Assembly: GCA_935421135.1 (NCBI GenBank)
Contig: OW285194.1
Coordinates: 3,343,501-3,407,500, forward strand
From: Bugulina stolonifera
Lineage: Eukaryota; Bryozoa; Gymnolaemata; Cheilostomatida; Bugulidae
Direction: 5' to 3'
DNA length: 64,000 nt
The notes under the pieces are model-generated. The model worked only from the letters and a program-made list of their open reading frames with translations, did not search any database and was not told the DNA's origin. This document shows, one piece after another, positions 7,709 through 62,028 of this stretch; positions within the stretch are counted from its first letter, which is position 1, and the number at the start of each line of letters is the position of its first letter. Made by a program: the position numbers and the translations under genes.

Positions 7709-8285
7709 TTATAGTAGAGGTCTAAGAATCTTCATATTCCTGTAGCGGAAAACCCCCATATGGTTTGATTCAGATAATGGATTTTCAGCATCTCTCCTTA
7801 AATCAGACAATCTCCTTGGCATTCCAAGACGTCCCAAGCACATGCAAGTATTTGTCATGTAGGTGGCACATTCTCCAGGCAGGTAAGCTGGGAGGCGACG
7901 GCATGCCCGGTTGCATTGCCTACTGCTCATTGGACATCCGGCATCAGCACTAACGACCTTTAAACCTTGAAGTAGAATACATTGAAAGTTATGGCCATGA
8001 TAATGTACAATATAACAGAAACCGATTAATTGCAGTTTTTTTCCTTGGGAGCATAATTATCAAACTGCTTGCATAAAAAAGTTCATACTTTTGTTCAGAA
8101 TCACGTAGTTTCTCATTTGCAATATTTACTGCATTTGTAGGACACAATATAATACTTCAAACAAATAACTAGCTTCGGTCCATAAAATCAGGCAAATGTT
8201 GTAGTATGTAGTAAAACATTGCATACTTACCAGCTAGGCAGAGTGTTATACCTACAACAGCTGTGAAAAAAATTCCGAACTGCAT
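7709..8285 (-). CDS. Divergent six-cysteine secreted peptide (CS-alpha-beta-like)
   Basis: Two exons on the minus strand. Exon 1 (8285 to 8231) encodes MQFGIFFTAVVGITLCLA, a typical signal peptide, and ends at GTAAGT in phase 1. Exon 2 (7965 to 7709) follows a CTTCAAG acceptor. The joined frame is 103 codons plus stop. The mature part has C-x6-C-x3-C-x10-C-x7-C-x-C, exactly the spacing of the genes at 17.5, 22 and 62 kb, although almost every other residue differs. It also has the GxC-x7-C segment that resembles the defensin gamma-core. A basic C-terminal tail follows the last cysteine (PRRLSDLRRD, ending KILRPLL). The family pattern suggests a secreted host-defence peptide; activity is inferred, and a toxin-like or signalling role is possible. 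A TATA box lies 61-70 bp upstream of the ATG. Confidence 0.75.
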
Positions 8286-8345
8286 CGTTATGATCTAAAT
8301 TTTGTGTGAGAGATTAAAAGAAATGAATTCATGTGATACAGCATG

Positions 8346-8355
8346 CCTTTATATA
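8346..8355 (-). promoter_or_regulatory. TATA box of the divergent cysteine-rich peptide gene
   Basis: TATATAAAGG on the minus strand, 61-70 bp before the ATG at 8285. The placement resembles that of the TATA boxes of the sister genes. Confidence 0.6.
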
Positions 8356-8359
8356 TGAC

Positions 8360-9729
8360 TTACTTGTTCTAACACAGATTACTTATTTCGTGTACAGTGA
8401 ATGAGCCAAATGATATGCCAATACTTGGCATAAATCCAATCGCTTTAAAAATAGCGCACTGTTCATATTGATTATTGTTCAAATGAAAATAGCAATAAAA
8501 TTATTGTACATTGTAAGTTTACTCTGTGATATATTGTTGTGCCAAGCTGCAGGTTATACTAGACGGTGATATACATGTACATTGTGTAATACAATGGTAC
8601 AAACACATTTAAGCAATTACATGTACATGAGTACAAGCACTAACACATTATTTTCATGCCTGTTAGACAAATAATATATCTTGCTCTATTAAATGAGACT
8701 GCTCTGTAAGTGAGGGACACAAAGCTTCTATTTTTACCTGATATAAACAATAGAATTGCGGTTTGGGTGTGTGCTATTATACATTTCAAGTACAATGTAT
8801 ATTACTTATTCTCACTATCTTATTATCATACGGTTAGTAGGTTCATAAACATAGAATAATACTTCTAACAGATGGCAGTTTGTCTCCAAAGTCAAACGTA
8901 GTGACTATTTGCCTGGGAAAATAAAACTGTATCTCATGTTAATAAGCTCATAAGGGTAATTCATGTTAGTTTCGATGGAGTTGGAATTTCATGGTCAGTA
9001 TCTATGAAAGAAAGGGCATTTGACCAATTAAGTACAGTCTTATTGTAAATTAAAAATATACATGCACTTACACTGTTGGCATACCCTCTCAGGAGACAAC
9101 AGCCGCACACTAAGTGGCCTGTTTAAGGATGGCAAAGCGTCCCTGCTCCGAAAACTAAACATGTATATGCATGTGTATGAGGGAGATAGACGGAAAAACA
9201 AAAACTAAACTTAGCAATTGGAGTTGTCTACATCCACTACCGCTGTGACAGCTAGCAAACTGTGCCCAACCTTGAAATGACGAACAAGCACTTTAAACCG
9301 ATGATTTTGACAGCTAGGACAATTATGAATGCTCATTGTAATATAAAAATGCTTCATTGTTTAATTCATCAACTTGAGTCAAAATTTAATTATATCTTGT
9401 ATCAATAATGCCCAATTCTGCAAAACACCCTTTTACAGTAACTGCACTCTTCATCATTGTGAAAATATAATTTTAGTGTTGTGCTAATCACATGCAATTA
9501 CTCATACATTTAGATTGCAATCTATGGCTTGTTAGCTTAATTTCTCTGCTAATTACTACCGTAGCATGTCTAACTAATACAGCAAACAGTGTGAGTGTAT
9601 TAGAAGCTTCCAAACAGTTTGAAAGATTTTAATATGTACTTGCATGTCTCAAATATTATAGGAACAAAAAATAGGCATGCATGTAAATCGACTAAATTAT
9701 ATGAAAAATATGAATTCCTAGTATTGAAG
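8360..9729. other. Intergenic, no gene seen
   Basis: AT-rich intergenic DNA between the 7.7 kb peptide gene and the small repeat at 9.73 kb. No supported coding or RNA feature. Confidence 0.45.
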
Positions 9730-9780
9730 CCCACTGTGGGGAATCCCACTGTGGAGAATCCCACTGTGGGGAATTCCCAC
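9730..9780. repeat. 15-bp tandem repeat carrying kappa-B-like sites
   Basis: Three units of CCCACTGTGGGGAAT (the middle one with GAG for GGG) followed by CCCAC. The unit junctions create GGGGAATCCC (9738-9747), GGAGAATCCC (9753-9762) and GGGGAATTCCC (9768-9778). The first matches GGGRNWYYCC, the last contains the matching GGGAATTCCC, and the middle one differs by one base. The repeat is directly visible; binding by a Rel protein is inference. It sits between two members of the cysteine-rich peptide family. Confidence 0.6.
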
Positions 9781-10064
9781 AGCAGCTTGCATAAAGTAAG
9801 AGACACTCATGTAGATATACTCAATTTCAATCTAAAAAAAACTTTACATACAAAATGTTGACTAGTTTTAGAGGCCATCAATAATATCCAATAAAAGCCA
9901 CCAGATAGTCTAATCCATAAACACTGCTTGTACATGTACATTTATTTTACATGTAGTTTGACGTAAACACACAAAGACTGATTTCATGTGCATTATTTAT
10001 GTACATGTATAAAATGTGTCTTATTGATTCCAAATCACATGACAGTGAGTAGATTAGTATAATA

Positions 10065-10243
10065 TTGTAATGTTTTGCTGGTGTGTGTTTCATCTGGGGT
10101 GACCTACTTGCAAAAATGTAGAACCTGTGAGTGGTGCTAGGCCTTCTCCATTACATGTAAGATCGACAGGTACTTGTAATTACTAAGTTAACCAAGACGA
10201 CCCATGTGGTCCCGAGTTAATGCTATCTTGCTATTATACATAT
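10065..10243 (-). mobile_element. 3'-end fragment of a TGTAAT-family LTR
   Basis: Begins TGTAATG, the inverted LTR terminus. It contains GAGTGGTGCTAGGCCTTCT, TTACATGTAAGATCGAC and CAAGACGACCCATGTGGTCC, which are shared with the minus-strand LTR at 37517 and, in reverse, with 19.9, 49.0 and 53.1 kb. Only the U5-side end remains. Confidence 0.75.
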
Positions 10244-11656: not shown

Positions 11657-12806
11657 ATGAACATTAATATAATATTGTACTATGCAGCAGTTCTGGGGAG
11701 CCCACATGTATATGATGTGTGGTGAGTGAATCAATGTTTTTACATGTATATGATGATATGAAGATTGATGTATTATGGATTATAGTTCATGGATACGTAT
11801 CATTGGAATTTAATACTAAGAGTGTATTTTAGGTAGGAACTTGTGTATGTACATAACGGGTTTACTGCATAAATGCACAACTTTTGGGAATACCACAAAT
11901 TAAAAAAAGAAAAAAAAATTTTGGTGCTACACATATGTTGCGTTTTCCTTGGAAACAAAAGAAGTTGTCTGCTCATTAATTTAACCAATGGGAGAGTAGA
12001 TGAATCTAAGTGACTGAAATAATAGCCTGTAAACCCACAAAAGGCAACTGGAGTTAGTGATGCATTTACATTAAATCTCTTTGAGGTTCACCTCTCCTTC
12101 TTATTGGAGCATACAATGGAGATTAAGACCTCTACTATTTTAGCAATAATATATATCGAAACACATGGGTTAAAAATTAGGTTCAACTAAATGTAAAGAT
12201 TTCCTATGCATAACATGCACCTGAGATCTTTTATTCAAAATTATAGTTGAGGGTGGATACAATGTAGCTCAGAACTGTCTATTGACAGCTCTGAGGTTAT
12301 TTTATTCTCCTGGTATTTATAATAGGGATTGAACCCTTCCTACAGTGCCGGTCTATTGTTGAAATAATTTAAAAACCGTTGCTATACTGCTTTCATCTAT
12401 TTTGCAGTCAGTAGAATATATTATAATTTAAATATTTACTTTCTCATTATGGTAAAGTCTATTCTTTAACTCACAGCAGAAAAAATGCAGATCTATTTAG
12501 ATCTTTGCTTTCTTACATGGGAATAATAGCTAGAAGGTAAATTGGGAAGTTTTAATACACTGTTTATCCAATATAATTACATGTATGATGACATCTGTAT
12601 TGGTTTCAGGCAGTGTTAAAGGATATAGAGGATGTCCAGGTAATGACAGGAAGTGTCATGAAGCATGTCGTAGCCTTAGACTGCACTTGACTGGAGCTTG
12701 TTCTAAAGAATTAAAGAAGACATGTCTGTACAGAACATCTGATGGAATTTCGAGAAGGCTCTTTTTCTGGGAGAGGATGAATCACGATCGAGTAGAGATA
12801 AAATAG
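11657..12806 (+). pseudogene. Decayed copy of the cysteine-rich peptide gene
   Basis: Exon 1 (11657-11721) aligns with the signal-peptide exons of the family and ends at the same GTGAGTGAATC donor. It is 65 nt rather than 61, and the net +4 puts it out of phase with exon 2. Exon 2 (12610-12806, acceptor GGTTTCAG) keeps five cysteines, but the final Cys of the C-x-C pair is Tyr and the tail is shortened. The frame break and the missing cysteine argue for a pseudogene. An alternative would be an undetected splice site or assembly error restoring the phase, but the lost cysteine would remain. The intron is 888 nt, longer than in the intact copies. Confidence 0.75.
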
Positions 12807-17310: not shown

Positions 17311-17384
17311 TGATTGGTTGATAAACCAAATTATTCCATTGTTTTCAAAACATTAGAATGTGCAGCTACACATAGGTATATAAG
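17311..17384 (+). promoter_or_regulatory. Conserved promoter block of the 17.5 kb peptide gene
   Basis: TGATTGGTTG (an inverted CCAAT box, 17311-17320), then CAAATTATTCCATTG, then TATATAAG (17377-17384), 86 bp before the ATG. The TATA element with its flank GGTATATAAGTCAGTGTCT and the CAAATTATTCCATTG block recur upstream of the 62 kb copy. The TGATTGGTT block recurs upstream of the 22.8 kb copy. Conservation across duplicates in non-coding DNA supports a functional core promoter. Confidence 0.7.
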
Positions 17385-17469: not shown

Positions 17470-18095
17470 ATGAATATCAATATATTGTACTATGCAGTGA
17501 CTGTGGGAATCTTACTTTATATGACGTGCGGTGAGTGAATCAGTATGTCTGTGAATTTTCTCTATAATATCACTGTCTGGTCACCATTTAAAGCTTATCA
17601 ACTTTTAATTCCCCAATTATTAAAGAACTTCCTCCAGGACACTGACAGAATAATAAATTTCAAAAAGGCACTTATAGGTGTTTCTGTGCAGCACTACATA
17701 TAGTTGAGTGAGTGTATATATATAACATGTACACATAGATGTATGGTTGTGATTAAATTAAGTGTAATTTGTTCCTGCTTAGAGCTTTATGAGCACCTGA
17801 AGCTGTCACTTTCAAGTTACTTACAGTGTTCATTCACTAGGTGAAAGTCTCTGTATTGGTTTTAGGTAGTGTTGATGGAAATGAAGGATGTCCAGGTGAT
17901 GACAGGAAATGTGATCAAGCATGTCAAGCTCTAGGCCATCACTTGAGTGGAGCTTGCTCTAAAATTCTACCGAATAACTGTCTGTGTGGAGGACCACATG
18001 GAATCTGGAGTAGGTACCCTGCCAGAGAAAGATTAAATAGGGAGATACATGCAATTCAGTACCCACGGACTATAATGCCACCAATATGGCATTGA
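17470..18095 (+). CDS. Secreted six-cysteine peptide, CS-alpha-beta (defensin-like)
   Basis: Exon 1 (17470-17530) encodes a 20-residue hydrophobic signal segment beginning MNINILYYAV. A phase-1 intron of 335 nt (GTGAGT...TTTTAG) is followed by exon 2 (17866-18095). The precursor is 96 aa. The mature region has C-x6-C-x3-C-x10-C-x7-C-x-C, from GCPGDDRKC through NNCLC. This is the C...CxxxC...C...CxC order of cysteine-stabilised alpha-beta peptides, and GAC-x7-C fits the gamma-core GxC(x3-9)C. After the last Cys comes an approximately 40-residue basic tail with RYPARER, longer than in ordinary defensins and a candidate for processing. The upstream in-frame extension to 17314 lacks an ATG and contains the TATA box. 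Defence against microbes is the family inference; no target is known. Confidence 0.85.
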
Positions 18096-21928: not shown

Positions 21929-22829
21929 TCAATTCTTATTAGGTATTTTCTCACATATGTGAACTTTAGGGCTATTCATGGACATCTTCGTCATAATTTT
22001 CCAGAAATAGTACCTCGTCCAGTTTCCATGAGGTCCTCTGCACAGACAGTGATTCTTTGGAAATTTAGAGCAAGCTCCAGTCAAATTCTGTCCAAGATCA
22101 CGACATGCTTGATCACACTTTTTATCATCACCTGGGCATCCTCTATATCCTTGAACACTGACTGAAACCAATACAGATACCATCATCCTGGTGAATGGAC
22201 ATTCTATGCATTACGCTGAATTCAACCCTAAGCAAAGAAACTGAGTGAGGATTTAATTTCATTGGTAAATGCCAGCAAGGCTTTACTTTGTAAAAGCAAC
22301 ATAGTTTGTCCTTTTTAAATATACAGTTCTCTTTTGTATCCCATAAGGAGCATATGCAGCATATTTGGGCATTGCATAATTATGCAGCAATGACAACTCA
22401 TTTTATTCTGCTATACACAGAAGATTATCTTGCTCAGCTCGGTTGCATGGTAATAATGTTTAACGTAAGCAAAGGGATTTCCCTTTAGAGCAAGCATTAG
22501 TCGAGCTTGAATGTTGACAATACTGTCGGTCATTAAAAGCAGTCTCATCTTAACAGTATATAATTTTCAAATATGTCTAATAATGCCTCATAGCAGTATT
22601 TAAAAAAGATTTGACTGAACCAGACATTTTCTCATCTCCTAAAATAGAAATCTAAATCGGTTATAAATAGGTTTCTATCCTAAATATATTTACACCATTA
22701 AATCCCAATGGTGGATATCTCTAATCCGTGACAGACGATCCATGCATACTGCACACCAATTTACTCACCACATCTCATATACAGTAAAGTTCCCACAGCC
22801 ATTGCATAGTAAAGTATACTGATGTTCAT
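21929..22829 (-). CDS. Secreted six-cysteine peptide, CS-alpha-beta (defensin-like), second copy
   Basis: Exon 1 (22829 to 22769) encodes a signal segment MNISILYYAMAVGTLLYMRC. The phase-1 intron is 607 nt (GTGAGT...GGTTTCAG) and exon 2 (22161 to 21929) completes a 97-aa precursor. The six cysteines keep the family spacing (GCPGDDKKC through NHCLC). The C-terminal tail (RYYFWKIMTK...IPNKN) differs from that of the 17.5 and 61 kb genes, so the tail evolves faster than the cysteine core. The intron contains GGGATTTCCC (22474-22483). The upstream region is homologous to that of the 17.5 kb gene for several hundred bases. The role is inferred from the cysteine pattern only. Confidence 0.85.
22474..22483. 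promoter_or_regulatory. Kappa-B-like site in the intron of the second peptide gene
   Basis: GGGATTTCCC fits the Rel/NF-kappa-B consensus. It lies in a segment (AGGGATTTCCCTTTAGAGCAAGCA) that also occurs, slightly changed, at about 54.23 kb, so it may simply belong to a dispersed repeat. Function unproven. Confidence 0.3.
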
Positions 22830-26066: not shown

Positions 26067-26165
26067 AAACTACAAACAAGTGACTTTGAGGCGAGGAAAT
26101 AATACCATTACCAATCAACTATCAATAATAAATCATCATACTACCGGGAAACAGCAAAGCTCAGG

Positions 26166-27164
26166 ATGTCTAGCAAAATAAATATCCCACAATTAAAGAT
26201 TGAACAGAATAATGAGATAGAAAGTTGGAACAGATTCCTGAAAAGGTTCGAAATAGCCACCATTTCAATTGACTTTGGGGCTAAAATAACAGAGGCTGAT
26301 GCGGAAAAGAAAACAAAGGAGATCAGCAAGAGACAAGGTGCAGCTTTGCTGAACAGCCTTGGGGAGGAAGGGATGGAGATCTTTGATACATTTAATGTGG
26401 CAGTAAAGGACATTCAATATGATGATATAATAAGTAAATTCAGAAACTACTTCTCGAAACGAGAAAATAAGACTATACTCCGTCATAGGTTCCTAAATAT
26501 GAGGCAAGGCAAAGAGGAGGAGCTTGGAGAATTTATTCAGCGAGTTTTGAAACAATCCCATTCATGCCAATTAGGAGATATGCGAGAAGATCTAGCCATA
26601 CACATCATAATAAATGGAATGCTTGATGAAAAACTAAAATCTGAGCTGCTTCAAATCGCAGATATTGACATGCCCAAACTCATGTCTACTAGCGCCAAAT
26701 ACGAGTCAGCAGGCCGAACAATGGACGAGCTTAAGGGCAATAGGAAGGACATAGAGATGGGAAACGTGACTACCAAGTGCACATGCCACAGTGAAAACGA
26801 CCAAGAGGTAGGGGCAGTGAATAATCTAGGAAGTAACCATTGTGGCAGCCCAGCCCATTTCCTTCGGAACTGTCCAACGGTCCCCTGTTTTAACTGCGAA
26901 GGCCAAGGGCATCTAGCAAGACAATGTCCCAAACCTCCAAAGAGAGGTAATACTAGAGGAGGAATGATAGGAAGCCGGGGAGTGAGCCGAGGAAGGAATC
27001 AAGGAAGAAGAGGTTTTAGAGGTAGAGAACGGGGGTATCGAGGGACATACTATCAAACCGCCGCTTATCAAGAGAGCACTAGAGAATCTCGGCAGGAAGC
27101 CATCAAACATGTCATAGATCTTAACCAAGACTGGGATGGGGAATCGAGTGACGAGTCCCTATGA
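26166..27164 (+). CDS. gag: Gag of the Gypsy element
   Basis: 332 codons from ATG. The N-terminal two thirds is a capsid-like helical region. At residues 241-254 is an intact CX2CX4HX4C zinc knuckle (CFNCEGQGHLARQC), preceded by a degenerate knuckle (NHCGSPAHFLRNC) that has lost its first Cys. An RG-rich nucleic-acid-binding stretch follows at about residues 265-305 (SRGRNQGRRGFRGRERGYRG). The frame ends at UGA followed by CUA, and pol continues in the same frame. This points to translational readthrough for Gag-Pol rather than the frameshift used by many relatives. Confidence 0.9.
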   Translation: MSSKINIPQLKIEQNNEIESWNRFLKRFEIATISIDFGAKITEADAEKKTKEISKRQGAALLNSLGEEGMEIFDTFNVAVKDIQYDDIISKFRNYFSKRENKTILRHRFLNMRQGKEEELGEFIQRVLKQSHSCQLGDMREDLAIHIIINGMLDEKLKSELLQIADIDMPKLMSTSAKYESAGRTMDELKGNRKDIEMGNVTTKCTCHSENDQEVGAVNNLGSNHCGSPAHFLRNCPTVPCFNCEGQGHLARQCPKPPKRGNTRGGMIGSRGVSRGRNQGRRGFRGRERGYRGTYYQTAAYQESTRESRQEAIKHVIDLNQDWDGESSDESL

Positions 27165-30032
27165 CTATATGGCTTGAATGGACTGAATAATAGAACCAAG
27201 ATGAGTAATGCTAAACCGGATCCTAAACAGCGTTACAAAATGTCCATCAAGGTAGCAGGTCACATAAAGACATTCCGGATTGATACTGGGGCAGACTTAT
27301 CAGTAATCAACAGTGAAACAAGGAGGAGCCTAGGTATTCCTAAAGATTATTTCAAATCCTCTACAAAAACGCTAGTTGATGCCGGGGGAAGGTCACTTCC
27401 ACAGGAAGGGGTACTGGAAGTTGAAATTGAAGTTGGAAACAGGAGGGCTACGGGGACATTCCACGTAATTAACCAAGCCCCAACAAACCTCTTGGGGGCA
27501 CCAGAGATAGAAGCCTTGGGCCTAATACCCAAAATATACAATGTACAAATAGAGGAAAAATTTCCTAAACTTTATGAAAGGTTAGGTAGGCTACCAGACA
27601 AATACCGAATAAAACTGCGCGAGGACGCCACTCCATACGCGCTGTCGGTCCCTAGAAAACTACCTATTGGCTTAAGAGAAGCGACCGAGAGAGAACTGAA
27701 AAGGATGGAAGAGCTGGGTGTGATAGAACCAGTTCAGGAACCCCGGGATTGGTGTGCCGGGATGGTGGTGGCACCAAAGTCATCAGGGGAGGTAAGAATC
27801 TGTGTTGACCTTACCAGATTAAATAAAAGTGTGAAAAGAGAAAACTATCCTTTGCCTAGGACAGAAGAGACGTTGGCAGTCCTAAAAGGCAGTAAAATAT
27901 TTTTGAAAATGGATGCCAACTCAGGTTTTTGGCAAGTTGAGCTCGAAGAGACATCGAAACCATATACCACCTTCATCACACCATTCGGGCGCTACCAATA
28001 TCGTAAACTACCCTTTGGAATATCAGCCGCTCCTGAAATATTCTAACGCCAGATTTTGAAAATCCTTAGTGGTTTAGAAGGAGTCGTCTGCATGATGGAC
28101 GACATATTGGTATTCGGAGAGGATGTGAGTGAACATGATAGACGTCTCGAGGCAGTAATGAAAAGGTTAGAGGAAGCCGGGATGACACTCAATAAAAAGA
28201 AATGTGGGTTCAGAGTCAGGGAAGTCGTTTTCCTGGGACACCATATTGGGGAGAATGGCATCTCGCCAGACCCAACCAAAGTACAGGCAATCACAGCTCT
28301 GGAACCTCCCACTTGTTTGAAGGAACTGAAGAGCTTCCTAGGGATGATTAATTACCTCCACAAGTTCAGTCCTCGTCTCGCGGAATTAGGTAAGCCACTA
28401 CAAGAGCTGAACAGCAAGAAAGGAGAATGGCTGTGGGATCATGACCAGCAACAAAGTTTCGAAGCTCTAAAGAGAGAAATCACTCAGGCCCCAGTTCCCA
28501 AATATGATGTCAAGGCCAAACACCGGGTCACGGCGGATTCTAGTTGCTATGCTATGGGAGCAGCCCTGCTGCAGGAGAACGGAAAGAAGCAGTGGCAACC
28601 CGTGGGCTTTGTATCCAGAAAACTAACTGAAGCAGAAAAGCGATACGCCCAATTAGAAAAGGAGGCTCTTGCTATCACATGGGCCTGTGAAAAGTTTGAT
28701 TTCTTCCTGGTAGGTACGTACTTTGAAGTGGAAACAGACCACAAGCCTCTGGTAAAGTTGTTAGGAGAGAGTGATCTGGCCAATCTTCCCTTGAGGTGCC
28801 AACGCTTTAAGTTGCGATTGATGAGATATAACTTTTCCATATTCCATACACCGGGCAGCCAAATGTATTTGGCAGATTTACTGTCCAGACCAGCAGGAGA
28901 ACCGACAGAGAAGGAAAGAGCTCAGAAAAATAGGGTTGAGATGCATGTAAGGGTGATAACAGCAGCTGAAGAGATCTTTGATGATCAGATACTTGAGGAG
29001 ATACGGTGCAAAGCAAGAGAAGACGAGGAGTATACCACCTTACTAAGTGAAATTCTGGAGGGATGGAAAAGAAAAGGAAGGACCTACAAAGGAGAGATCA
29101 GACGGTATTGGACTCAAAAAGACCACATGTCATGCCAAAATGGAATGGCTATGAGGGACGACAAGATAGTAATCCCGAGAAATTTAAGGGATTCTATGAT
29201 AGAGAGGATCCACAGAGGGCACCAAAGACTGGAAAAGTGTCTAAGAAGAGCCAGGACAAGTATGTACTGGCCCGGTATGAGGTCCGATCTGGAGAAATAT
29301 ATAGAAAGCTGTAACCGGTGTATCATAAGTCGAAAGACGAAAGCATTGCCAATGAAACCCACAGAACTACCAGACAAACCCTGGCATACTCTAGGGTCGG
29401 ACCTGTTCGAGTACAGGAAACGGAACTATTTGCTGATGATAGACTACTACTCTAGGTGGATTGAGGTATTAGAAATAGAAGCGAAGACTTCCGAAGCGAT
29501 TGTGAAAAAGATGAAGAACGTGTTTGCCAGATTTGGCACACCTTGTAAACTTTGTAGTGACAATGGACCATGCTATGTAGGCCAGTTCTTCAGGAATTTC
29601 ATGGAAGATTGCAAAATAAACCACATCACCAGTAGTCCCCATTACCACGAAAACAATGGTTTGGCTGAGCGGAGTGTGCAGACGGTAAAGAGTATGTGGG
29701 ATAAAGAAAGGGACAAGAATCTGGCACTTCTCATATACAGGAATACACCACTAGAGAGTGGTAGATCTCCCTGTGAGCTACTAATAGGCAGAAACGTCAG
29801 GACAAACATACCAGTAGGAGACTCTGGTATCACAGAAGAAGAGTTTAGAGAGAGGGACGGTAACCTCAAAAGGATGCAGAAGGAAGCGAGAGACAGAAGG
29901 ACTAAAGCCAGGGAACAAGAGGAGTTCAAGGAGGGAGACGTCGTATGGGTTAAGAATGGCAAAGAGAAGGGAAAGAGAGGCATAGTAATTGGAAGGAGAG
30001 CCAGACAGTTACAATGTGAGAGTAGCGGGTAA
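27165..30032 (+). pseudogene. pol: Pol of the Gypsy element, interrupted
   Basis: In frame with gag after the UGA. Order: aspartic protease (FRIDTGADLSVI, with the second motif NLLGAPEIEALGLI); RT (catalytic KMDANSGFWQ, LPFGISAAPEIF, then MMDDILVFG); RNase H (TADSSCYAMGAAL, KEALAITWA, ETDHKPL); integrase zinc region (HRGH ... CNRC) and DDE core (GSDLF, CSDNGP, NNGLAERSV). A TAA at 28044-28046 replaces the codon after APEIF, where relatives usually have Gln. The frame is then open to 30032. Near 29990 the reading shifts, because the conserved integrase C-terminus continues in the +1 frame. All catalytic motifs outside these two lesions look intact. Confidence 0.9.
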
Positions 30033-30462
30033 GACAGTGAGGAGAAACTGGAGACATATGAGGAGGTTGAACATCAACCAACCTATAGACGAAGAGTCTA
30101 GTAGCATGGTCGAGACAGAGTCAGAAAAGGAGGAAGAGTCCAGTGAAGAAGACGAGGTGAGCGAAGCAGAGGAAGAGAGCGAAGGGGAGGAAGAGAGAGA
30201 AGGCTATGGGGAAGGAAAGAGGGCCCAAGACAAACTAAAATCACCACCAATCAAGAAACAAAAGACAGACTTTACTAAGACCAGACATAACGAGGTAAAG
30301 GAAGAGAGAGTTCGAGAGCAATCCGAAGTTCAATCCAGCAGGAGACCAAGGAGAATGGTTTCTAAGAAACACCTGTCTTCGGACTATGTGTGGAATCTTA
30401 AAAAAAAAAAAAAAAAAAATATGATATTAATATACTGTGACAAACTGACAGATGAAGACTAG
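29989..30462 (+). pseudogene. Pol C-terminal tail in shifted frame
   Basis: Continues the integrase end as DSYNVRVAGKTVRRNWRHMR, then an acidic Glu/Ser-rich tail, then RRPRRMVSKKHLSSDYVWNL, the kind of ending seen in Gypsy polyproteins. A 20-nt A run (about 30400-30419) codes a Lys string and may be prone to length error. It has no ATG of its own and belongs to pol after a one-base shift. Confidence 0.8.
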
Positions 30463-30614
30463 TATACGTCATCAGACTAGGTTTAATTTTCTTTCAAATT
30501 TTATAATCTTCATACTCTCCACTTCCCATTGTCTACTCATCCAGGTTGTCCAGCCTGAGTCAACCAACCCCTAGTAGCTATTGGGACCAAAATCCTTGAA
30601 ATTTCCATTTGCAG

Positions 30615-31508
30615 ATGCTGACCATCAGAGGAAACAGCTTGGTTAGAAATCTGAGGGTAGAAGGTGCCACTATCTTCTGCAAAGGAGGTCAACATTTGAG
30701 GGAGATGCTGGATGAAGCAGATGAAGAGGAGACAACCCTGTTTGTTTTTGGCATACCGGACTTGTGGAGACGAGGTGTGAGAAGGATGGAGAAGGAGCGT
30801 GTTGCCGACTTAGAGACTCAGATGAGGCGTGTAAAAGGGAAGAAGAACTGGACTATGGCCACTTTCTTTCCACCGCAGTACGCCAATGACATAGAGAGGG
30901 AGACAGTCAGACAACTCAATTATCTACTGACTGAGATTAACTTATACAATGGAAACTCAACGGTAGATTTACACAATGTCATGTACTACCGAAAGGATAA
31001 TTGGATTGTTTTGAAAAGTCACATGTACGAGGATAGTGTACACTGGAATACAGCGGGAGAGATTAGAGCGAGGGTAAAGGTTCAACAATGGTGGGGGACA
31101 GCAATCAGACAGCAGAAAGCGAGAGAGACTATAGAGTCCCAGGTCAGGCTGCTAAGGGAAGAGACAGAGCAGAAGATAGAGAACTTTATTGGGAAAAAGA
31201 GAGCCACATGTGAAAGAAACATAAAGGAGTTCACAAGACAGGAAAGAGGAAGGTTGGAGGAGAAAGTCCAGCAGCTAATGACAAGTAGTGAAGTGGAAGT
31301 GCGAGAGGAGGAGAGAAGAGAGCGAGAGAGCGGTAGTGAGAAGATGAAGGGTGAAGTGGAAGTGCGAGAGAAGAAGAGAAGAGAGCGAGAGAGCGAGAAG
31401 CCACAAGAAAGCAGGAGATCGAAAAGAGAAAAGAATGACGATCTAAGAATGGTCATAGAGGCCAAGAAAAGGGACCGACCCACCAGTAGGTCCCGGTTAA
31501 GTTTTTAA
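30615..31508 (+). CDS. Third ORF of the Gypsy element, SGNH/GDSL-hydrolase-like
   Basis: 297 codons in the env position. The N-terminus reads MLTIRGNSLVRNL (block I of SGNH hydrolases, with GNS for GDS; Ser8). FVFGIPDL at residues 43-50 corresponds to the GxND block with Pro for Asn, and DSVHWNTAG at 140-148 to the DxxH block (Asp140, His143). So Ser, Asp and His of the triad are present while the oxyanion Asn is changed. Residues about 170-290 are a charged coiled coil with a duplicated EVEVREEERRERES-type unit. There is no signal peptide or membrane anchor, so it is not a classical envelope. TTTCCATTTGCAG immediately before the ATG looks like a 3' splice site, which would allow expression from a spliced mRNA. 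The family call is by motif only. Confidence 0.7.
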   Translation: MLTIRGNSLVRNLRVEGATIFCKGGQHLREMLDEADEEETTLFVFGIPDLWRRGVRRMEKERVADLETQMRRVKGKKNWTMATFFPPQYANDIERETVRQLNYLLTEINLYNGNSTVDLHNVMYYRKDNWIVLKSHMYEDSVHWNTAGEIRARVKVQQWWGTAIRQQKARETIESQVRLLREETEQKIENFIGKKRATCERNIKEFTRQERGRLEEKVQQLMTSSEVEVREEERRERESGSEKMKGEVEVREKKRRERESEKPQESRRSKREKNDDLRMVIEAKKRDRPTSRSRLSF

Positions 31509-36699: not shown

Positions 36700-36726
36700 G
36701 TTAGAAAGCACTCTGGAGGGAACCAA

Positions 36727-37516
36727 CTTTATTATACTTACTCTATAGATAACTAAATGTACATTTTAAGTGGTAAACAACTACAACATGGTTTGGTGAA
36801 CACTGAACAGGCAGGTTTTTAATCAGGCATGATAAGACAACTCCAGTGAATGTGAAACACAAAATGATGCAACAACAGTTGGGGAGGGGTTAATTGATCA
36901 ATGAGTTATGGTAGTGTGCATGTGAATTTTAAAGTTAATGCCAAAATGTAATAGTGTATATGTACATGTACTCAGTAGATATCAATATAAATACATGTTC
37001 ATGCAATACTTCTACTCCATATTATACTGTATATTATGGTAAATTATAACAAGTGTACTCAGTATAATATATCCTCAACAGCAATAGCATAACTCATTCC
37101 ATTTTCAAGTAACGTCCGTTTCCATGCGATGTTGCCTACACAGTTTTGTGTAGACAACTCCGCATAAAACGAGTAAGTAAACCACGTTCTGTGCTTTGGC
37201 ATAGAACCATTTTTAAGGCTGGTCTAGGAAGGCCCCCAACATAACTAAACGGAGCACCGGTTTATTACCAGTGCATTAAATAGTTTCTATCTAGATTTTT
37301 CTATGATATATACTATGTTTTTCATATACTGAAGTATTTAGGAGGTGACGTCTATTAAAATTAAACAGTAGGCAGGAAATAACAGACATTGAACATGTTA
37401 GCCATTAACGCTAAACCGCTCCCCTAACCTTTAAGCTATTTACAGTGCGTAGGTACAATACAATGTAGTAGTAGAGCGTGGTAGTAAACAATACAACTGA
37501 ATCACTAGTTTAGTAT
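36727..37516. other. Intergenic, no gene seen
   Basis: Upstream region of the EEP gene. No clear core promoter beyond TATAATAAAG at about 36729-36738 on the minus strand. Confidence 0.4.
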
Positions 37517-42240: not shown

Positions 42241-42244
42241 ATCA

Positions 42245-43018
42245 CCTTCGTACACAACTACAGTATATCATACACATAGTGTAATGTATTACTGTACAGT
42301 GTATGTTATTACACCTTTGTACACAACTACAGTATATCATACACATAGTGTAATGTATTACTGTACAGTGTACGTTATTACACCTTCGTACACAACTACA
42401 GTATATCATATACATAGTGTAATGTATTACTGTACAGTGTATGTTATTACACCTTTGTACACAACTACAGTATATCATACACATAGTGTAATGTATTACT
42501 GTACAGTGTACGTTATTACACCTTTGTACACAACTACAGTATATCATACACATAGTGTAATGTATTACTGTACAGTGTACGTTATTACACCTTTGTACAC
42601 AACTACAGTATATCATACACATAGTGTAATGTATTACTGTACAGTGTACGTTATTACACCTTTGTACACAACTACAGTATATCATACACATAGTGTAATG
42701 TATTACTGTACAGTGTACGTTATTACACCTTTGTACACAACTACAGTATATCATACACATAGTGTAATGTATTACTGTACAGTGTACGTTATTACACCTT
42801 TGTACACAACTACAGTATATCATACACATAGTGTAATGTATTACTGTATGTTATTACACCTTTGTACACATAACTACAGTATATCATACACATAGTGTAA
42901 TGTATTACTGTACAGTGTATGTTATTACACCTTTGTACACAACTACAGTATATCATACACATAGTGTAATGTATTACTGTATGTTATTACACCTTTGTAC
43001 ACATAACTACAGTATTAT
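42245..43018. repeat. 69-bp minisatellite, about a dozen copies
   Basis: Tandem 69-bp units containing TACACAACTACAGTATATCA, CACATAGTGTAATGTATTAC and TGTACAGTGTACGTTATTAC. Units are nearly identical, with CGT/TGT variation and two shortened units near the 3' end. Because 69 is a multiple of three, long frames open on both strands; these are not genes. Confidence 0.97.
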
Positions 43019-43019
43019 C

Positions 43020-44638
43020 ATACATATTATATTGTACTATTACTAGTGAAATGGTAGGTAACACATGTAACAAATAGTGACCAGAGTTATCCATTCAGCG
43101 GTCATATTTACCCCGATTAGGTCATGCAACTCAACTTTCTATGTGATGGAACACTCGACTACATTGGAGTAATCTACTCAACTAGTGCATGAACTTGAGT
43201 TTATCACATTAATGTATATTCCGGTGATCCATCGCAGATAACTTATAAACCGTGTATGTTATATTCATGTCTACTCTATGTACAGTACATGATATTTAGA
43301 TGAGTGAGACTAAAATTATCAATAGTGATGTGATTAATGATTATAAGGCTCTAGTCAGAATACAACACAAGGCTACTGATACTTACAGATTACTGACTAG
43401 CAATCATACAATAATCACTGAATGTCTAATCTCAGCCAAGTACAGATGCTTGAGTACAGATGTTTGATGTACAGATGCTTGAGTACAGATGTTTGAGGAA
43501 GCGCTAGTCTCTGTGTATTGTATCCTGTGTTATCGTGTGGTAACTAGTGAGTACTGAGTTGCACTGAGTGTGTAAGGAAGAAATAAAGTTACATGTAGTT
43601 AGTTGGCAGTCACAACTCGCTGAGTGATGAGTTGCTAGCAGGAATGTGATGACTCTATCATTATACTATACAATGTATTTGTACTTCACACTGAATACCT
43701 AGCTACTGTTTCAGTCAAAAATTACTCAACATAGAGGGTGGGGTTGGCAGACACCCAAAGAAGACAAGGCGATGGTATAGAGGCTATTATAATGCAAGTA
43801 ATATACATGTACATGTCGTTAGGTTATAAAATATATGGCGGCCTATACTACATTGTACCAACTGTATTAGTTGTTATACATGGATGTGCTACTTACATGA
43901 TTGTACTATGAAGTACGGAGTATCATTAGTGTCATGCTTGATTGAGTTTGGAGTGAGGAGGTGTGATGAAGGGGTAGGTGACTCCCAATTGACATATTAG
44001 GCTGTATAGACTGTAGAGGATGCTCTGTGTTGTGAATATCCCTTTAGAGTTGATGAGAGGTACCCACTATCACAGAGCTGTTATCAGCCTGCACATTGTA
44101 CGTGTGCACAGGAGAAAGAGGTGCGACTAATTATTGCTTTCAAGACGAGATATGTTGATTTTTTGTTGTAGCCTATGTTAGTATTGTATAATATTGTAGT
44201 AATGGTATCTTTAGTACTCTAATTCATGATAGTTGGTTCTAAAATTAATGTGTGTAAGGTAGCACAATTCCAAACCCTTACTTGAAAAATACAGTATAAT
44301 AATAATTATAATATGACTAATCAATTACTAGATGCTTATTGGAATGATTGATAACTCGATGTATATGTACATGTACATGTAACAAGAAATAAATCGGTTG
44401 ATCAGGCAGATTCATAAATATTGTTGAAGTTTGACATTACACAAATTTTGATTAATGAGGTAGTATTATTGCACCAAACACAGATAATATGAATGAACTA
44501 CTATGTATATGGGACTATATAATTAAAATGAAGCATGCTTGTGTAATGATTCTCTTCATGGCCACTTACAGTCTGTACAACATAAATTAAACAGGGCTGT
44601 AGTAATCACATAGCAACATACCACAAGTCACATACATT
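43020..44638. other. Intergenic, no gene seen
   Basis: A short direct repeat of GAGTACAGATGTTTGA/GTACAGATGCTT lies at about 43440-43500. Otherwise nothing supportable. Confidence 0.45.
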
Positions 44639-49124: not shown

Positions 49125-49440
49125 CAAAGGTCGTACTCTTACAGTACGAAGCAGAAGGAAGGTGACCTTGGCCTCGGGTAACCCGACCAACCTCACTCTT
49201 CAAGACTTCACTGGCGATTAAGGACTCGGACCCGGGAACCCGCATGACGAGAAGGTGACAGAAAGCTAAAGCGCACCCTTAATTCTCGTGGTTCCGCTGG
49301 ATGCAGCCCGACCTACGCCGGCCCTTCAACTAAAGACTGACCTCGGATCCAGAATAGATTGACGGTACTCAATACGTCGACTAGGCGGACCCAGCCTCTC
49401 AATTCAAGTAACTAATCCCTCAACTAGACACCCTACCGGC

Positions 49441-49947
49441 ATGGACCGACTAAAGGACCCGCTACAGCAGGTGATGTAACAGACAGGACAGGACCCCGAC
49501 ACACTCACGTACAATGGACAAGAGGAGGTGGAACGCTTTATAGAAGACTTCTCCACTATGGCAGCGCGTTGCAACTGGAACTACAGAGCACGCCTCATAT
49601 GGCTCAGAGCCGCCCTACAAGGACCTCCACTAGAGTGTGGAAGACCCAAATCAGTCGATGAGATATTTGCCCAGCTGAGGGGGCAGTATGGAATAACTGC
49701 CAGAGAAGCTCGCTGGAAGCTGTCCACCTTTGAACAGCCCGTTCACACTTCACTCAGAAGTCATGCCGCCCTCGTCCGCAGACTTATGGCGAAAGCCTTC
49801 GACGAAGCACCTCCTGCATCCTTGGACGAGTGTACCCTTGAGAAGTTTTGCCTCACGGTCTACGACCCCAGTCTACGTAGGTACTACGTACGGATACAGC
49901 CCCATGATTTGGATGACGCGGTCGTGGCCGGAACACTCTTTCTGTAG
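49441..49947 (+). pseudogene. Gag-like ORF with an early stop
   Basis: An ATG at 49441 opens a frame broken by TAA at 49477-49479, then open for 155 codons to TAG at 49945. The reading LTYNGQEEVERFIEDFSTMA, WLRAALQGPP and VDEIFAQLRGQYG resembles Gypsy-type capsid sequences. No zinc knuckle follows in this frame. After the TAG other frames carry on, so the gene is decayed. Confidence 0.65.
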
Positions 49948-50029
49948 AAACACGACCAAGGGACGACCCCTCATCAGGAGGAGCTTCCCGATGACCTCAT
50001 ACGGAAAGCTCTTCACATCCTCTTACAGC

Positions 50030-50345
50030 AGTCGAGCCGACAGACACATCAGAACCCGTCTCAGTAGACGAACCCATTCCCACTGAGGCCGACAGAGGCA
50101 TCAAACCAGGAGAAGGTGGACCAAACCCAAACAGTGGTCATCTACCTAGGCCGACGGATACATCGGAACCCGTCTTAGTGGAAGAACCCATACCCACTAG
50201 GCCTAAATACAGAAGCACAAACAAACGACAAGGTGGACCTGACCCAGCCGGCAAACACCCACCTGGGCCGACGGTACAACCAAAACCCGTCCTAGTGGAA
50301 GGACCTATACCCACTAGGCCCAAAGAAGAGAGTAGCCACTCTAAC
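50030..50345 (+). repeat. Degenerate coding repeat, about 120-bp units
   Basis: Three diverged units, each with CCGAC, AACCCGT, GTGGAAG and CCCACTAGGCC words and Pro/Thr-rich translation (PIPTRPK). This is an internal repeat of the retroelement's coding region. Confidence 0.6.
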
Positions 50346-50437
50346 CAGGAGACACCACACGTAGCTAGCCAGCCCCACGCCAGGCCGTACTGGATCAAAC
50401 AGAAGAGCTACATCTGAACCTCTCAGATGACGTTCAA

Positions 50438-50986
50438 GTGTTAACAGCCGGACCTGATCCAGAGGACGCAAAGTATCGCGTAGCCGACCTCCAAGACATA
50501 TTCCCGGCGACGGAGAAACAGTCTATACTGCCAGCAGTTCATATCCAAAGAGCGAGATGTTCTTTTACAAAATTCAGTATTGCCAAACAAGTTCAGCCGA
50601 AGATACAGATTGCCGAGCTCTCGAAATCCCGCAAAGAGGATAGAGGGCAATCGAAAGCAGATAATGCCGAGTTCCCGCGCTTATTTGACGAGTCGAACAA
50701 AGAAAATGTGCCTGAGGCATTGCCTACAAATGAGCAATACGCTCATCCCTCGGCTAGTATAAATACGACGGCTCACAGACGAGTAGTCCTTTCTCGTCCA
50801 GCACTCTACAGTGACACATGTGCATGTATCCCTACATGTGACAACCCCTGCACTCTTGCTCGTGTCTCTGGTAGAACTACATGTAACAGCAGTCATATTC
50901 TTTCTGTTCCTGAAATGGACGGGCCGGCTACCTCTCCTCAAAAGGATCACTCATCTCAGCCTGTCTTCACAGCTGAAGGTAAGTAA
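50438..50986 (+). pseudogene. Unassigned open segment of the LTR element
   Basis: Open frame without its own ATG; it continues from upstream Leu/Asp-rich coding and ends AEGK*. GAAG/GTAAGT at its end is a plausible splice donor. Composition is Ser/Pro-rich with a Cys-rich patch (CACIPTCDNPC). No family recognised. Confidence 0.35.
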
Positions 50987-54857: not shown

Positions 54858-55736
54858 AATATACAATAAATGAATATTTTAGCCAATTAGAAATAAGCTT
54901 GATATTGCAATAGTATCACACAAAAGTATGATTACTGAGTTAGGATTTTACCCTAGTAAGTCGTGAATATATTACTTAGTTAGCTTTGTATTTTAATGTG
55001 CGTATTGCATGTATTCCCGGTTTTCTCTTTAAGTAAATTGTGGATTTAGAAGTATACATGGATAGAAGATGAATATGAAAAAGTTAATGTGGAGTTGTAT
55101 TGAGTATACATAATATAAGGTAATAGATAAACGTGAAGCGTGACGTAGTATTTATTTTATTAATTCTGCCCCTGCAGGTAAAGAGCAATATTTCACAAAT
55201 ATTTTAAAAAATGCTTGCCAAAGTCTAGCTATAAAGTACAAAGTTTCCTGCGAATCTGCTAAATATACTTCATGGTCTACCTTCTAAGCCATTCCTTCAC
55301 AGTATAGTTGTCGAAACTCATCTTGCAGGGTAAGTCATGTTTGATTTAATATACACGATACTGTAATTATCACTAAGGGAGTCTTCTTATCAACAACTAG
55401 GACTCTGCTATTGCACGGAGCATCGCATGAACCAGTGCAAATGTAAGTGTATGCAGATTCTCTCATTTATTCTGTCTCATTCCTGCTCCAAATGCCTTTA
55501 CTTCTACTTCTATCGTGCAGAATTTCATTCTTGATTCATATCACAGCAGTGGCTCGTTATTCTGTTAATTCAAGAAATCAGATCTACTTCCTACAGTGTA
55601 GTCACGCAAACATTCTGCTTTTCTTATGAGTGAATTATTAAATAAGTATACCACCTTTACAAAATAAGCGAAAACATTTGTGCAATGTATGTTATTTAGT
55701 TGTGCCATTGTAGTTTGTGGGTGCACAATTACATTT
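54858..55736. other. Intergenic, no gene seen
   Basis: A short open piece around 55400-55442 (reading LLLHGASHEP before GTAAGT) resembles an ankyrin fragment but has no supported partner exon. Confidence 0.4.
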
Positions 55737-55925
55737 ATCTCCCTATTCAATCTTTCACTGGCAGCGTACCTTCCCAGATTCCATGTGTGATCTTTTACAC
55801 AGACAGTGTACTAGCCTTCTTTACACTTTTAGAGCAAGCTCCACTTGAGTTAGATCACATAGCTTTACATGCTTGGTAACACTTCCCGTCATTACCTAGA
55901 CATCTCTCATTTCCGTCAACTTTAC
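55737..55925 (-). pseudogene. Decayed exon 2 of the cysteine-rich peptide family
   Basis: From an acceptor-like CTTAG (exon start 55925) the minus strand reads GKVDGNERCLGNDGKCYQAC, then a TGA at the position of the first helix end. SSGACSKS follows, the fifth cysteine is lost, and TAA comes before THGIWE. Two in-frame stops and the lost cysteine mark a dead copy, closest to the 17.5 and 61 kb genes. No exon 1 was found in the next few hundred bases. Intron-like homology resumes near 56281, suggesting an insertion in between. Confidence 0.8.
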
Positions 55926-55969
55926 CTAAGACCAGTATCATAGATACATTTCTCTGTTTAATGATCATT

Positions 55970-56530: not shown

Positions 56531-56533
56531 ATA

Positions 56534-58397: not shown

Positions 58398-60069
58398 GGT
58401 TATGTAACTGGGGTTCTCAAAAATAAAATTCCTTTTAACACTATATAGGCATTACTACCTGGAAAGGCATAAGAAAAAAATTGGGAAAGTCTAAGAAATA
58501 TTTTCAAGTTATGGCCCATAGTAATTTTGGGGTCCGTTTACTACAGCTCCAATTTTATGAATGAAATGGCTAGACAGGGAACTCCGTCGTGAAGGTATGA
58601 CACAATGTTACAGATGCAGAAGAATAATCAATCTCATTTACATAGTACTACATGGTGTATGGCTAACATATAATTCATGTTTTAACAAGCTTTTCTCTGT
58701 CTTTGTATATGTAATATCCCATGCAAAACATATGTGTGGTGTATATTCTTATAAAATACATATATCCACTGTTCTAGGGCAGTTATTCTACTAGATATGT
58801 TTGTTGGGTTGTTTTGCAGCAGCTAGTGACAGTCTAAAAGCCAACACAAAACAAAATACGCAAAAAAAACAATGATTTGATCCTAGATCTCATATTTGAA
58901 TAATTACATGTACAGTGTGCAGCTCTGGTGGTCTAAATGGCTTGCCTATGTGCAGTTTACTAGGAGTTATCCCACCTTTTAATTAAGGGAAAACCTTGCT
59001 GCTAAGCAACTGACATGTTCCGGAAGCTCCGCCTACCTTCATTCATAAAAAAAATGGCTATAAGAAATAGAAAAGTTGATCGTTTTTAAGCCAGTTAGCA
59101 GCATTAGGATGAGTGGATGTTCAATATTTAGTAGCATTGCAATGGAATATCATTCCACCAGTACTATAAAACCATTTAAACTGTAGAGCCTCTTTTAAAT
59201 AGCTGCATGTCAAATTAAATTAGCAAATTAATATTTTATTCTCTCAGATTTGAACAAGTATTTTAAATCTACTTCATTAAGAGCTTTATTTGAATTATTA
59301 AGGATTTGTTTATATGTAGCCCCCATGATGAAAGCTTGCTGAAAATGAATTTGGTTAGATATCCGAGCAAATGCTGCTCTATTTCGCTGTAGTTGACGCC
59401 AAAAGTTGCTAATTTTAATTTTGATAGCGGTTCAAAAAAGGAATTTCCCAGAGTTTTTGAAGCATCCACAAAGCCAAATAACTAATCAAAGACAAGCCCG
59501 CTTCTTCATGCTTCAATTGAGCTAAAACTATTAATAAATTGGCTACTACTGCAAAGTGAAGTGAGATAGTTGACGCCAAAGTAATGTGAATAAAGCAACG
59601 TAAATTGGCCAAAATCAAGAGAGGATAACTTCATATGATATGCGTGCCCTGCAGTCTAATACTATCCTACCTGTTCCTAAACACTAATAGAAACACCTGC
59701 ACATGCTAGTTTACGTTATGGAAAAGAATTTATTCTACAAATAAGACAAAACTTCGATAAGGTTTTACAGGCAACAAGCCAGCATAAGAAAAAGTTCTAG
59801 GAGGTCATTATTTTATTTTATCTCCTCATAACACTAGCCTAGGTAAACATTCATGCATATTTAACAATATTATGCAATAATTTAACTGAAAAATAAATTC
59901 TTCCAGTAACAGCAGGCAAACTTCATAGCGCTGTTTTCGGTCTTTGACCCCCTGTAACGTTGCGTCATGTGACTTAATGCTAACGCTGAAAGCTGTCCAG
60001 GCCCTTTCAGACATGGTTAAATATGTGGGAAAAATTTCGAAGGAAAATTCAGACCCCAGTTACATAACC
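58398..60069. mobile_element. Non-autonomous piggyBac-type element, 1.7 kb
   Basis: The terminal inverted repeats GGTTATGTAACTGGGGT are exact for 17 bp and flanked by TTAA on both sides (58394-58397 and 60070-60073). Internal frames show no transposase motifs. The termini differ from the 47.5 kb piggyBac-type element, so two families are present. Confidence 0.88.
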
Positions 60070-61056
60070 TTAATTATCAGGCTTGGGTAGGACTGTGAAA
60101 AAGTTGAAGTAATTGAACAGACTTAGTGTGGCATTATGAGAATGTATTACAACTTATCACACCTTAGTGTTCAGTACAGCTTTAACATCAAAATTAAAGC
60201 TGGCTTTAAAATTTGTTTTCAATACTTAAAACCTGTCACTACTCTAATCCAAGCTATGCAGCATAAAATTGAAGTCAGCTGCATTACATAAAAAATCTCC
60301 TTCCAGCTGTTAAAGGGGTTCTGTCTTGTGTTTTGAGGAAATTAGTTATTTGGTGGTACAGCACATTGTGTGCCTGGTTACGTCTTATTACCCTTGTACT
60401 GCAATTGCATGTGCCTTATGTTTTTGCATCTAGGCTATTATATTATGTAACTGTAGAATAACTAGGCATAGAAGAAAAAATTGTATCTATCTTTATAGTG
60501 TGGCCAGATGAAATACCAGACTTACTAAAAAAAGTCAGTATAAAGAAAGCCTAGAAAAATTTAATAGCTTACACAGGTTACCCTGCAGCCACATGTACAT
60601 GTATATTAGTAAACTTAGTGAAACAATTTGGTTACTACTGTTTAGTACTCTGTCTATGCAAGCAGCTTGAATTCAAGAAATTTCACTATAAGACATTGTG
60701 GGATCAAGGTATAGAGATCATTGCTATATAACACAGACACCTATTGGATTTTGAGATTGAAGTCAACCAACAGGATTGTTGTACTAGACTTGGAGGGAGA
60801 GGATTGACCAGTTTCAATTCTATTTCATCATCAGTGAGTCTAGACGTGCTGTTAAATTATATTCTTTTCAGACTATGTATTGACTTGACTAACATAAAAC
60901 TTCTTGCATTCACTTTGATCTACCTACAACTTGTAGGCTTTATACGTGTTTTGAATCATAATATTATCATATTATCACTGGCTTGTGACTTTGTTAGTTC
61001 AATAGTTTAACCGAATTCTCAGTCATCTAAATATATTGCGTGTTTCTTATGAGTTT
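60070..61056. other. Intergenic, no gene seen
   Basis: The open frame at 60744-61010 is hydrophobic but AT-driven and unsupported. Confidence 0.4.
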
Positions 61057-61062
61057 TTTATT
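61057..61062 (-). terminator. Polyadenylation signal of the 61 kb peptide gene
   Basis: AATAAA on the minus strand about 60 bp after the stop at 61122. Confidence 0.6.
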
Positions 61063-61121
61063 ATTCAATGAAGGTCATCTTTCCAAACTATTCAATCGAA
61101 CAAATTTATATGTTATAATAT

Positions 61122-62028
61122 CTAATATGGTCCTAGAGTGGTAGTCCACAGGTACTGAATTGCATATATATCCCTGCTAGTTCTTCTCCTGGCAGGGTAC
61201 CTCTTCCAGATTCCACGAGGTCCTTTGCACAAACAGTTATTCTTTACAATTGTAGAGCAAGTTCCTGTCAAGTTGTGGTTCACGCTGCGACATGCTTGAT
61301 CACATTTCCTGTCGTCACCTGGACATCCTTCATTTCCTTTAACACTGGCTGAAACCGATACAGAGACCATATTCATCTGGTGAATTAACATTATATGCAT
61401 TGTCCAACTAACAGCTTAGCATACCATTAAGCTAAATAGTACTCCAAGTAAAGAAAAAAACGAGTATAATAGCAATCATATATGCATGCATGCACTTCAC
61501 TAATGCTGCACCTTTCATTGCCCTTTTGAAATTTACATTTATTTTTCTCTCTTGTAGGAGACGTTTGAGTAAATACAAATATTCAAAGTTGAAAGTTACA
61601 CTCATGTTGATAGACTTTACAACATGGTACCCAGACTGTCATAATATATTACTGTTATAGAAGAAGCATTACCTGTTGCTGCCATATTGTACATACAGCT
61701 GATCTCGAGATTCATGAAAACAGTTTGCAAGCCAATTTCATTATAATAATCAAGCATTTATAAAATTTGGTATACTACGCATAAAGTAATACATGTACAT
61801 ACACTGTACATATTATCTATGTATGTGTACCACACATGTCAGTTTCTATTCTAAATAATATAGAAACTGACATGTACACAAACTTTGTATATGCACTATT
61901 ACTGTATATTCGTAATCTACATGTATTTAAATACATGTACATGTATTATGTACATTGATTCACTTACCACACACCATGTAAAGCAAAACTCCTACAATTG
62001 CTCCATAGTACAATATATTGATCTTCAT
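61122..62028 (-). CDS. Secreted six-cysteine peptide, CS-alpha-beta (defensin-like), third copy
   Basis: Exon 1 (62028 to 61968) encodes the signal segment MKINILYYGAIVGVLLYMVC. The phase-1 intron is 619 nt (GTAAGT...GGTTTCAG) and exon 2 (61348 to 61122) completes a 95-aa precursor. The core from GCPGDDRKC to NNCLC keeps the C-x6-C-x3-C-x10-C-x7-C-x-C spacing. The tail KRYPARRRTSRDIYAIQY is clearly related to that of the 17.5 kb gene, so these two are the closest pair. The intron holds a 16-bp perfect hairpin (ACATGTCAGTTTCTAT and its inverse near 61836-61877). Upstream TATA and homologous promoter support expression. Function is inferred from the cysteine pattern. Confidence 0.85.

Follow-up and report, generated by a model that had tools for sequence, protein, structure and literature searches.

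A chromosome 8 cluster of predicted CS-alpha-beta defensin-like peptides with basic C-terminal extensions in the bryozoan Bugulina stolonifera

Introduction

What kind of peptide is encoded by the several six-cysteine genes in a 64,000-nucleotide stretch of the genome of Bugulina stolonifera (assembly GCA_935421135.1, contig OW285194.1, positions 3,343,501 to 3,407,500; this whole stretch is hereafter the window), and how far does the family extend? The species is a colonial, filter-feeding bryozoan amenable to culture, and its published assembly, tzBugStol2.1, comprises 235 Mb with a chromosome 8 of 16.4 Mb (PMC10213821). An original prediction, made from the window alone, had proposed a family of secreted peptides with the cysteine-stabilised alpha-beta (CS-alpha-beta) framework of defensins; we follow the naming in PMC5116183. 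We suggest, with a probability of about three in four, that these genes are members of an expanded family encoding secreted host-defence peptides of the CS-alpha-beta (cis-) defensin-like type, with their positive charge mainly in a C-terminal extension.

Results

The four genes and two damaged copies that had been proposed for the window are all present (Table 1). Each of the four intact gene models translates cleanly and is split by one phase-1 GT..AG intron (265, 335, 607 or 619 bases). Exon 1 encodes 18 or 20 residues plus one base, while the end of the signal peptide, the cysteine core and the C-terminal tail all lie on exon 2; thus, the core exon is uncut by introns. The framework C-x6-C-x3-C-x10-C-x7-C-x-C, written with TGY codons, occurs four times exactly and five times with at most one mismatch, compared to a mean of 0.03 in 100 dinucleotide shuffles, none of which reached five. 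The exact spacing on which the prediction was built is therefore a real feature of the window. A looser three-cysteine pattern was weakly in excess (15 occurrences versus 7.8 expected, with three of 100 shuffles as high).

To which family do these genes belong? A profile built from 25 intact members (A2) matched 11 Protein Data Bank (PDB) sequences at E up to 1, with BmKDfsin3 (1.4e-4), micasin (0.0048) and eurocin (0.0067) first, followed by plant defensins, and with MGD-1 also among the matches. We take all 11 to be CS-alpha-beta defensins. By contrast, of two column-shuffled control profiles in which the cysteines were kept fixed, one matched 12 lactoferrin chains (best E 0.058) and the other had no match; neither recovered a CS-alpha-beta defensin. 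We therefore reject the explanation that the matches arise from the cysteine pattern alone; in other words, the signal in A2 exceeds that pattern. A2 excludes L014 (a near-duplicate), L006, the four copies without all six framework cysteines and copies found later. Because its rows were selected as intact, cysteine conservation within it is by choice, and all family counts given below (n=30 or n=34) come from the full set of loci that were read. Single members matched PDB sequences weakly, with E-values of 0.04-0.3 at best. Pfam scores for the family were under the cut-off wherever given, and at E up to 10 the A2 members touched Gamma-thionin (9/25) and Defensin_2 (6/25). Across the whole genome, the arthropod defensin model PF01097 gave four matches at E up to 1, none of them over the curated cut-off and none in the cluster described below, and the big defensin model PF14862 gave none at E up to 1.

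The predicted fold is compatible with this assignment. The AlphaFold model of gene 4, which is of moderate confidence (pLDDT 75.6), has a helix (8-18) followed by two strands (23-26 and 33-37), and a third strand (43-47) contributed by the tail. In a VIA fold comparison, 12 of 24 rows, including the top eight, were CS-alpha-beta chains. The core has six cysteines, a few tails having extra ones at no common position, and the disulfides would be expected to connect C1-C4, C2-C5 and C3-C6. Altogether, the assignment of the cluster to the CS-alpha-beta peptides, as originally proposed, is well supported by sequence and less firmly by the predicted fold.

The structural matches included the scorpion toxins scyllatoxin, tamapin, PO5, Cn2 and BmBKTtx1, and they raise the question of whether the same fold serves another target, with the peptides acting on ion channels or membranes of animals such as predators or foulers, as a chemical defence of the colony resembling the short scorpion toxins. 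A relative of the family on contig C4 also scores with Pfam scorpion toxin models, although under the cut-off (E 6.6e-5), and for a sponge ASABF peptide, haemolytic activity and a repellent effect on molluscs have been reported (PMC3210614). However, the cluster family itself finds its best sequence matches in antimicrobial defensins, and the fold alone does not discriminate between the two kinds of target, so that we regard a role against animals as unlikely.

How widely is the family distributed? The genome (234,951,659 bases in 27 contigs, with a chromosome 8 of 16,401,861 bases) was searched with four members and two outlying relatives, and the loci are the union of these searches, making the counts lower bounds. 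At least 36 exon-2 loci, 26 on the plus and 10 on the minus strand, lie in a single cluster at 3.351-3.828 Mb on chromosome 8, and the window represents the left edge of this 476-kb cluster. The family had been described as dispersed; this is correct within the window, but genome-wide the clear copies form this one cluster. Among the 34 loci that were read, the other two being listed with an internal stop, 30 have an open exon with all six framework cysteines, and 22 of these 30 have the exact 6-3-10-7-1 spacing; the remaining four (L016, L018, L026 and L039) lack at least one framework cysteine. Upstream of 24 of the 30 open six-cysteine loci, there is an exon-1 candidate. The same test was passed by 91 of 600 pieces of 1500 bases drawn at random from the window, so that a handful of the 24 candidates may be spurious; the exon 1 that it accepted for L025 (donor GTATGA) is doubtful.

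Outside the cluster, we found weak relatives, two on contig C4 with six cysteines each and one on contig C11 with four. The latter (L037, C11:5476300-5478400) retains four of the six cysteines, has a good candidate for a signal exon and contains GEW and NHW in its tail, which suggests a copy that has lost one disulfide. One contig C4 relative matches ARD1 and heliomicin (E 0.003-0.011). One of the contig C4 relatives and L041, which lies at the right-hand edge of the cluster, retain the motif FGCP. From this shared motif rather than from a tree, we infer that the cluster family descended from a gene resembling those of the ancient invertebrate-type defensins (AITDs).

Within the cluster, protein and genomic distances among the 21 modelled genes were correlated (Mantel r 0.32, a value reached in 9 of 5000 permutations). 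The identity of each gene to its nearest copy ranged from 38 to 90% and was at most 70% in 17 of the 21; as judged from these sequences, most of the duplications would thus not be recent. Together with the six of 36 cluster loci that are broken or short of framework cysteines, this pattern fits the birth-and-death evolution that had been suggested.

The core sequences place the family close to, and yet apart from, known defensins. It shares the short n-loop six-cysteine framework, GCP at the first cysteine (G before C1 and P after C1, each in 29/30) and GxC at the fourth cysteine (27/30) with the GXGCP group of AITDs, i.e. BmKDfsin3, MGD-1, eurocin, micasin, plectasin and actifensin. In contrast to that group, 29 of the 30 Bugulina exons lack an aromatic residue before GC, the exception being L041, G at position -3 occurs once, and histidine before C3 is absent from all 30. 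In the GXGCP group, this histidine is present in 72 of 88 sequences, and in plectasin, lipid II binding has been linked to residues that include F2 and H18 (PMC12284004). Should the Bugulina peptides bind lipid II at all, they would be expected to do so through different contacts.

The second difference is the tail, which had been singled out as unusual for a defensin and which is real and carries a conserved motif. The Bugulina tails are 19-42 residues long, while in the published set 119 of 123 peptides have a whole length of at most 43 residues (PMC12284004). The tail begins with the motif GPxGxW (G2 25/30, P3 23/30, G5 26/30 and W7 27/30), followed by hydrophobic residues at every third position (position 10 in 29/30, 13 in 23/30 and 16 in 25/30); gene 1, the most divergent copy of the window, has no Trp at tail position 7. 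The net charge of the tail is positive in 28/30 (median +5, compared to a core median of +2), and the tail is more positive than the core in 22/30. Because the net positive charge is mainly in the tail, binding to microbial surfaces would probably be led by the tail.

Among 31 cluster tails, including that of L018, which is short of one cysteine, the hydrophobic moment of tail positions 7-20 was unremarkable relative to shuffles at 90, 95 and 100 degrees (z 0.2, -0.8 and 0.6), high at 105 and 110 degrees (z 3.5 and 5.4) and under shuffles at 160-180 degrees, with eight angles tried. We do not claim an amphipathic alpha-helix, because the periodicity is that of a three-residue repeat rather than of a clean helix, and because the first part of the tail is a strand in the AlphaFold model.

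Dibasic pairs at tail positions 14-15 are present in 11/30, versus 1.7 expected from composition. Trimming of the peptides at this site is a guess. As such pairs are also found in processed prohormones, they bear on a different view of the family, in which the defensin fold carries signal or recognition molecules for colony recognition or for interactions with gametes or symbionts, and in which copy number serves specificity rather than killing. The many divergent copies, the weakly charged cores and the variability of the tail and of the loop between the fourth and fifth cysteines (the C4-C5 loop) would all suit such molecules. Still, no receptor or partner is known and the basic tails suit microbial-surface binding; we consider a recognition role quite improbable.

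Constraint was estimated from the 21 gene models, L018 included, as the pooled ratio of nonsynonymous to synonymous differences (pN/pS) in the 60 of 210 pairs with dS < 0.8, pairs that share genes; other runs used 58/210 and 56/210 pairs at dS < 0.8, and one of them also 77 pairs at dS < 1.2. The ratio was 0.42 in the signal peptide, 0.22 in the C1-C2 loop, 0.68 in the helix and 0.49 in the tail motif, while it was 1.19 at the other tail positions (bootstrap 0.90-1.60) and 1.26 in the C4-C5 loop (0.74-2.95). As these last two intervals include 1, we do not claim positive selection there. Compared to randomly drawn sets of tail positions, those of the tail motif vary less (7 of 5000 sets scored as low), but this test is partly circular because the motif was picked from the same sequences. 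Accordingly, the signal peptide, the first loop and the tail motif look constrained at the sequence level, while no such constraint is apparent in the C4-C5 loop or in the rest of the tail.

A TATAWA element lies at -150 to -40 of the ATG in 17 of the 21 modelled genes, compared to 13% of 110-base pieces drawn at random from the window, although related genes are not independent witnesses. NF-kB-like sites found no support (one of 21 upstream stretches).

Are the copies, then, mostly non-functional relics of an old expansion? The six broken or cysteine-short loci and the mobile-element open reading frames in the window (see below) are what one would expect of relics. But the open six-cysteine exon in 30 of the 34 read loci, pN/pS well below 1 in the signal peptide and the first loop, and the positioned TATA boxes all argue against decay, and we regard this explanation as very improbable.

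Table 1. Positions of the predicted genes and damaged copies in the window
Feature	Position	Strand	Basis or remark
Gene 1, full span	7709..8285	-	
Gene 1 exon 2: signal end, six-Cys core, tail	7709..7965	-	Translation, spacing match
Gene 1 exon 1, signal peptide	8231..8285	-	TATAWA at -70 of ATG; locus L032
Damaged copy, full span (at 12633)	11657..12806	+	Exons 1 and 2 joined give a stop after 24 residues
Damaged copy, exon-1-like piece	11657..11721	+	Out of frame with its own exon 2
Damaged copy, exon 2	12610..12806	+	Frame open; last framework Cys changed to Tyr; L016
Gene 2 TATA box (TATAWA)	17377..17382	+	-93 of ATG
Gene 2, full span	17470..18095	+	
Gene 2 exon 1, signal peptide	17470..17530	+	Translation
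Gene 2 exon 2: core and tail	17866..18095	+	Translation, spacing match, structure model
Gene 3, full span	21929..22829	-	
Gene 3 exon 2: core and tail	21929..22161	-	Translation, spacing match
Gene 3 exon 1, signal peptide	22769..22829	-	Translation
Dead copy, exon-2 remains with stops (at 55867)	55703..55920	-	No exon 1 seen
Gene 4, full span	61122..62028	-	
Gene 4 exon 2: core and tail	61122..61348	-	Translation, spacing match, AlphaFold model
Gene 4 exon 1, signal peptide	61968..62028	-	Translation
Gene 4 TATA box (TATAWA)	62118..62123	-	-95 of ATG

Several other elements share the window with these genes. At the left cluster edge (2052-4165, plus strand), short open frames with ankyrin-like repeats, one of them matching Ank_2 at E 0.0053 (under the cut-off), are probably exons of an ankyrin-repeat gene. 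A Ty3-type retroelement at 26103-31508 (plus strand) encodes a gag-like open reading frame with a zinc knuckle, a protease, a reverse transcriptase, RNase H and an integrase; its reverse transcriptase extends over two open reading frames with an in-frame stop between them, and a GDSL-like frame (under the cut-off) follows. A 738-residue open frame at 34552-36765 (minus strand) has an endonuclease/exonuclease/phosphatase domain as in LINE-type elements. A 69-base unit is repeated in tandem at 42243-43024 (11.5 copies, 95% matches) and is open on both strands. Finally, a GC-richer segment at 49428-50986 (plus strand) has gag-like open frames with a 117-base repeat inside, and two of its open reading frames matched no Pfam model at E up to 0.01.

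Elsewhere in the assembly, cox1 is open under the invertebrate mitochondrial code on a contig of 14,440 bases. Two further contigs, C12 (21.7 kb) and C26 (45.4 kb), have long AT-rich cox1 frames that are unlike the animal one and in which TGA is read as Trp. These two contigs look like protist mitochondria, perhaps from organisms dwelling on the colony, and presumably from ciliates.

Discussion

We suggest a model in which most of the modelled genes share one layout: a TATA box is followed by a signal-peptide exon and, after a single phase-1 intron, by a second exon that encodes the rest of the signal together with the core and the tail. The genes would be transcribed and the peptides secreted, folded and processed to kill or control microbes. 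In this model, the core would fold as an alpha-helix, with CxxxC pinning it to a beta-hairpin that ends in CxC. The tail would first form the GPxGxW turn and the third strand predicted for gene 4, and then place basic residues between the hydrophobic residues at every third position. As a result, the charged, Trp-bearing extension would lead the binding to microbial surfaces, and variable residues in the tail and in the C4-C5 loop may widen the range of targets across the copies.

More tentatively, it is possible that the family represents a two-module defence peptide that arose in the bryozoan lineage, in which an AITD-like core has lost two features linked to lipid II, while a GPxGxW tail encoded by the same exon holds the charge and would mediate most of the binding. 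The copies would diversify in the tail and the C4-C5 loop, some perhaps being trimmed at the dibasic site, and the 476-kb locus would provide a repertoire with different targets. We are more doubtful about this detailed version than about the host-defence function as such.

The design of the Bugulina genes has counterparts in other animals. Defensin genes of scorpions, other arthropods and molluscs likewise have two coding exons, a phase-1 GT-AG intron in the signal part and an unsplit core exon (PMC6435467); the Bugulina genes differ in lacking H before C3, in their long tail and in their large tandem cluster. Mussel mytilins combine a signal peptide, a CS-alpha-beta core and a C-terminal extension, but their extension is anionic and their gene has four exons (PMC7168163), while the Bugulina genes have two exons and mostly basic tails. 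ASABF-type peptides of nematodes and the sponge Suberites have the CS-alpha-beta order with GxC but eight cysteines (PMC3210614), and with six cysteines in its core, the Bugulina family falls outside the ASABF and macin types with at least eight. Finally, big defensins, one of which is reported from the bryozoan Flustra, are also host-defence peptides, and in their genes a phase-1 intron likewise precedes the part for the cysteine domain; however, they consist of a beta-defensin-like cysteine domain and an N-terminal hydrophobic domain (PMC7203481). The main text of the Flustra genome paper has no mention of "defensin", "antimicrobial" or "immun" (PMC13326412). We found no earlier description of the Bugulina family in the open-access literature, among the matches listed, and no relatives in the protein collection searched, where one search gave no candidate and another three, of which none was scored. 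These searches are consistent with the earlier suggestion that the family may be undescribed. Thus, the family is ordinary in kind, while its scale, its lineage and its tail are unusual.

The family goes undetected when the Pfam arthropod-defensin model is applied at its cut-off, and scans of this type may therefore underestimate effector repertoires in neglected phyla. If confirmed, the CS-alpha-beta array of at least 36 loci would represent a large-scale diversification of effectors in a little-studied lophotrochozoan phylum, and it would offer a test of whether an ancient defensin fold can be retargeted when lipid II-linked residues are lost and a charged tail is acquired.

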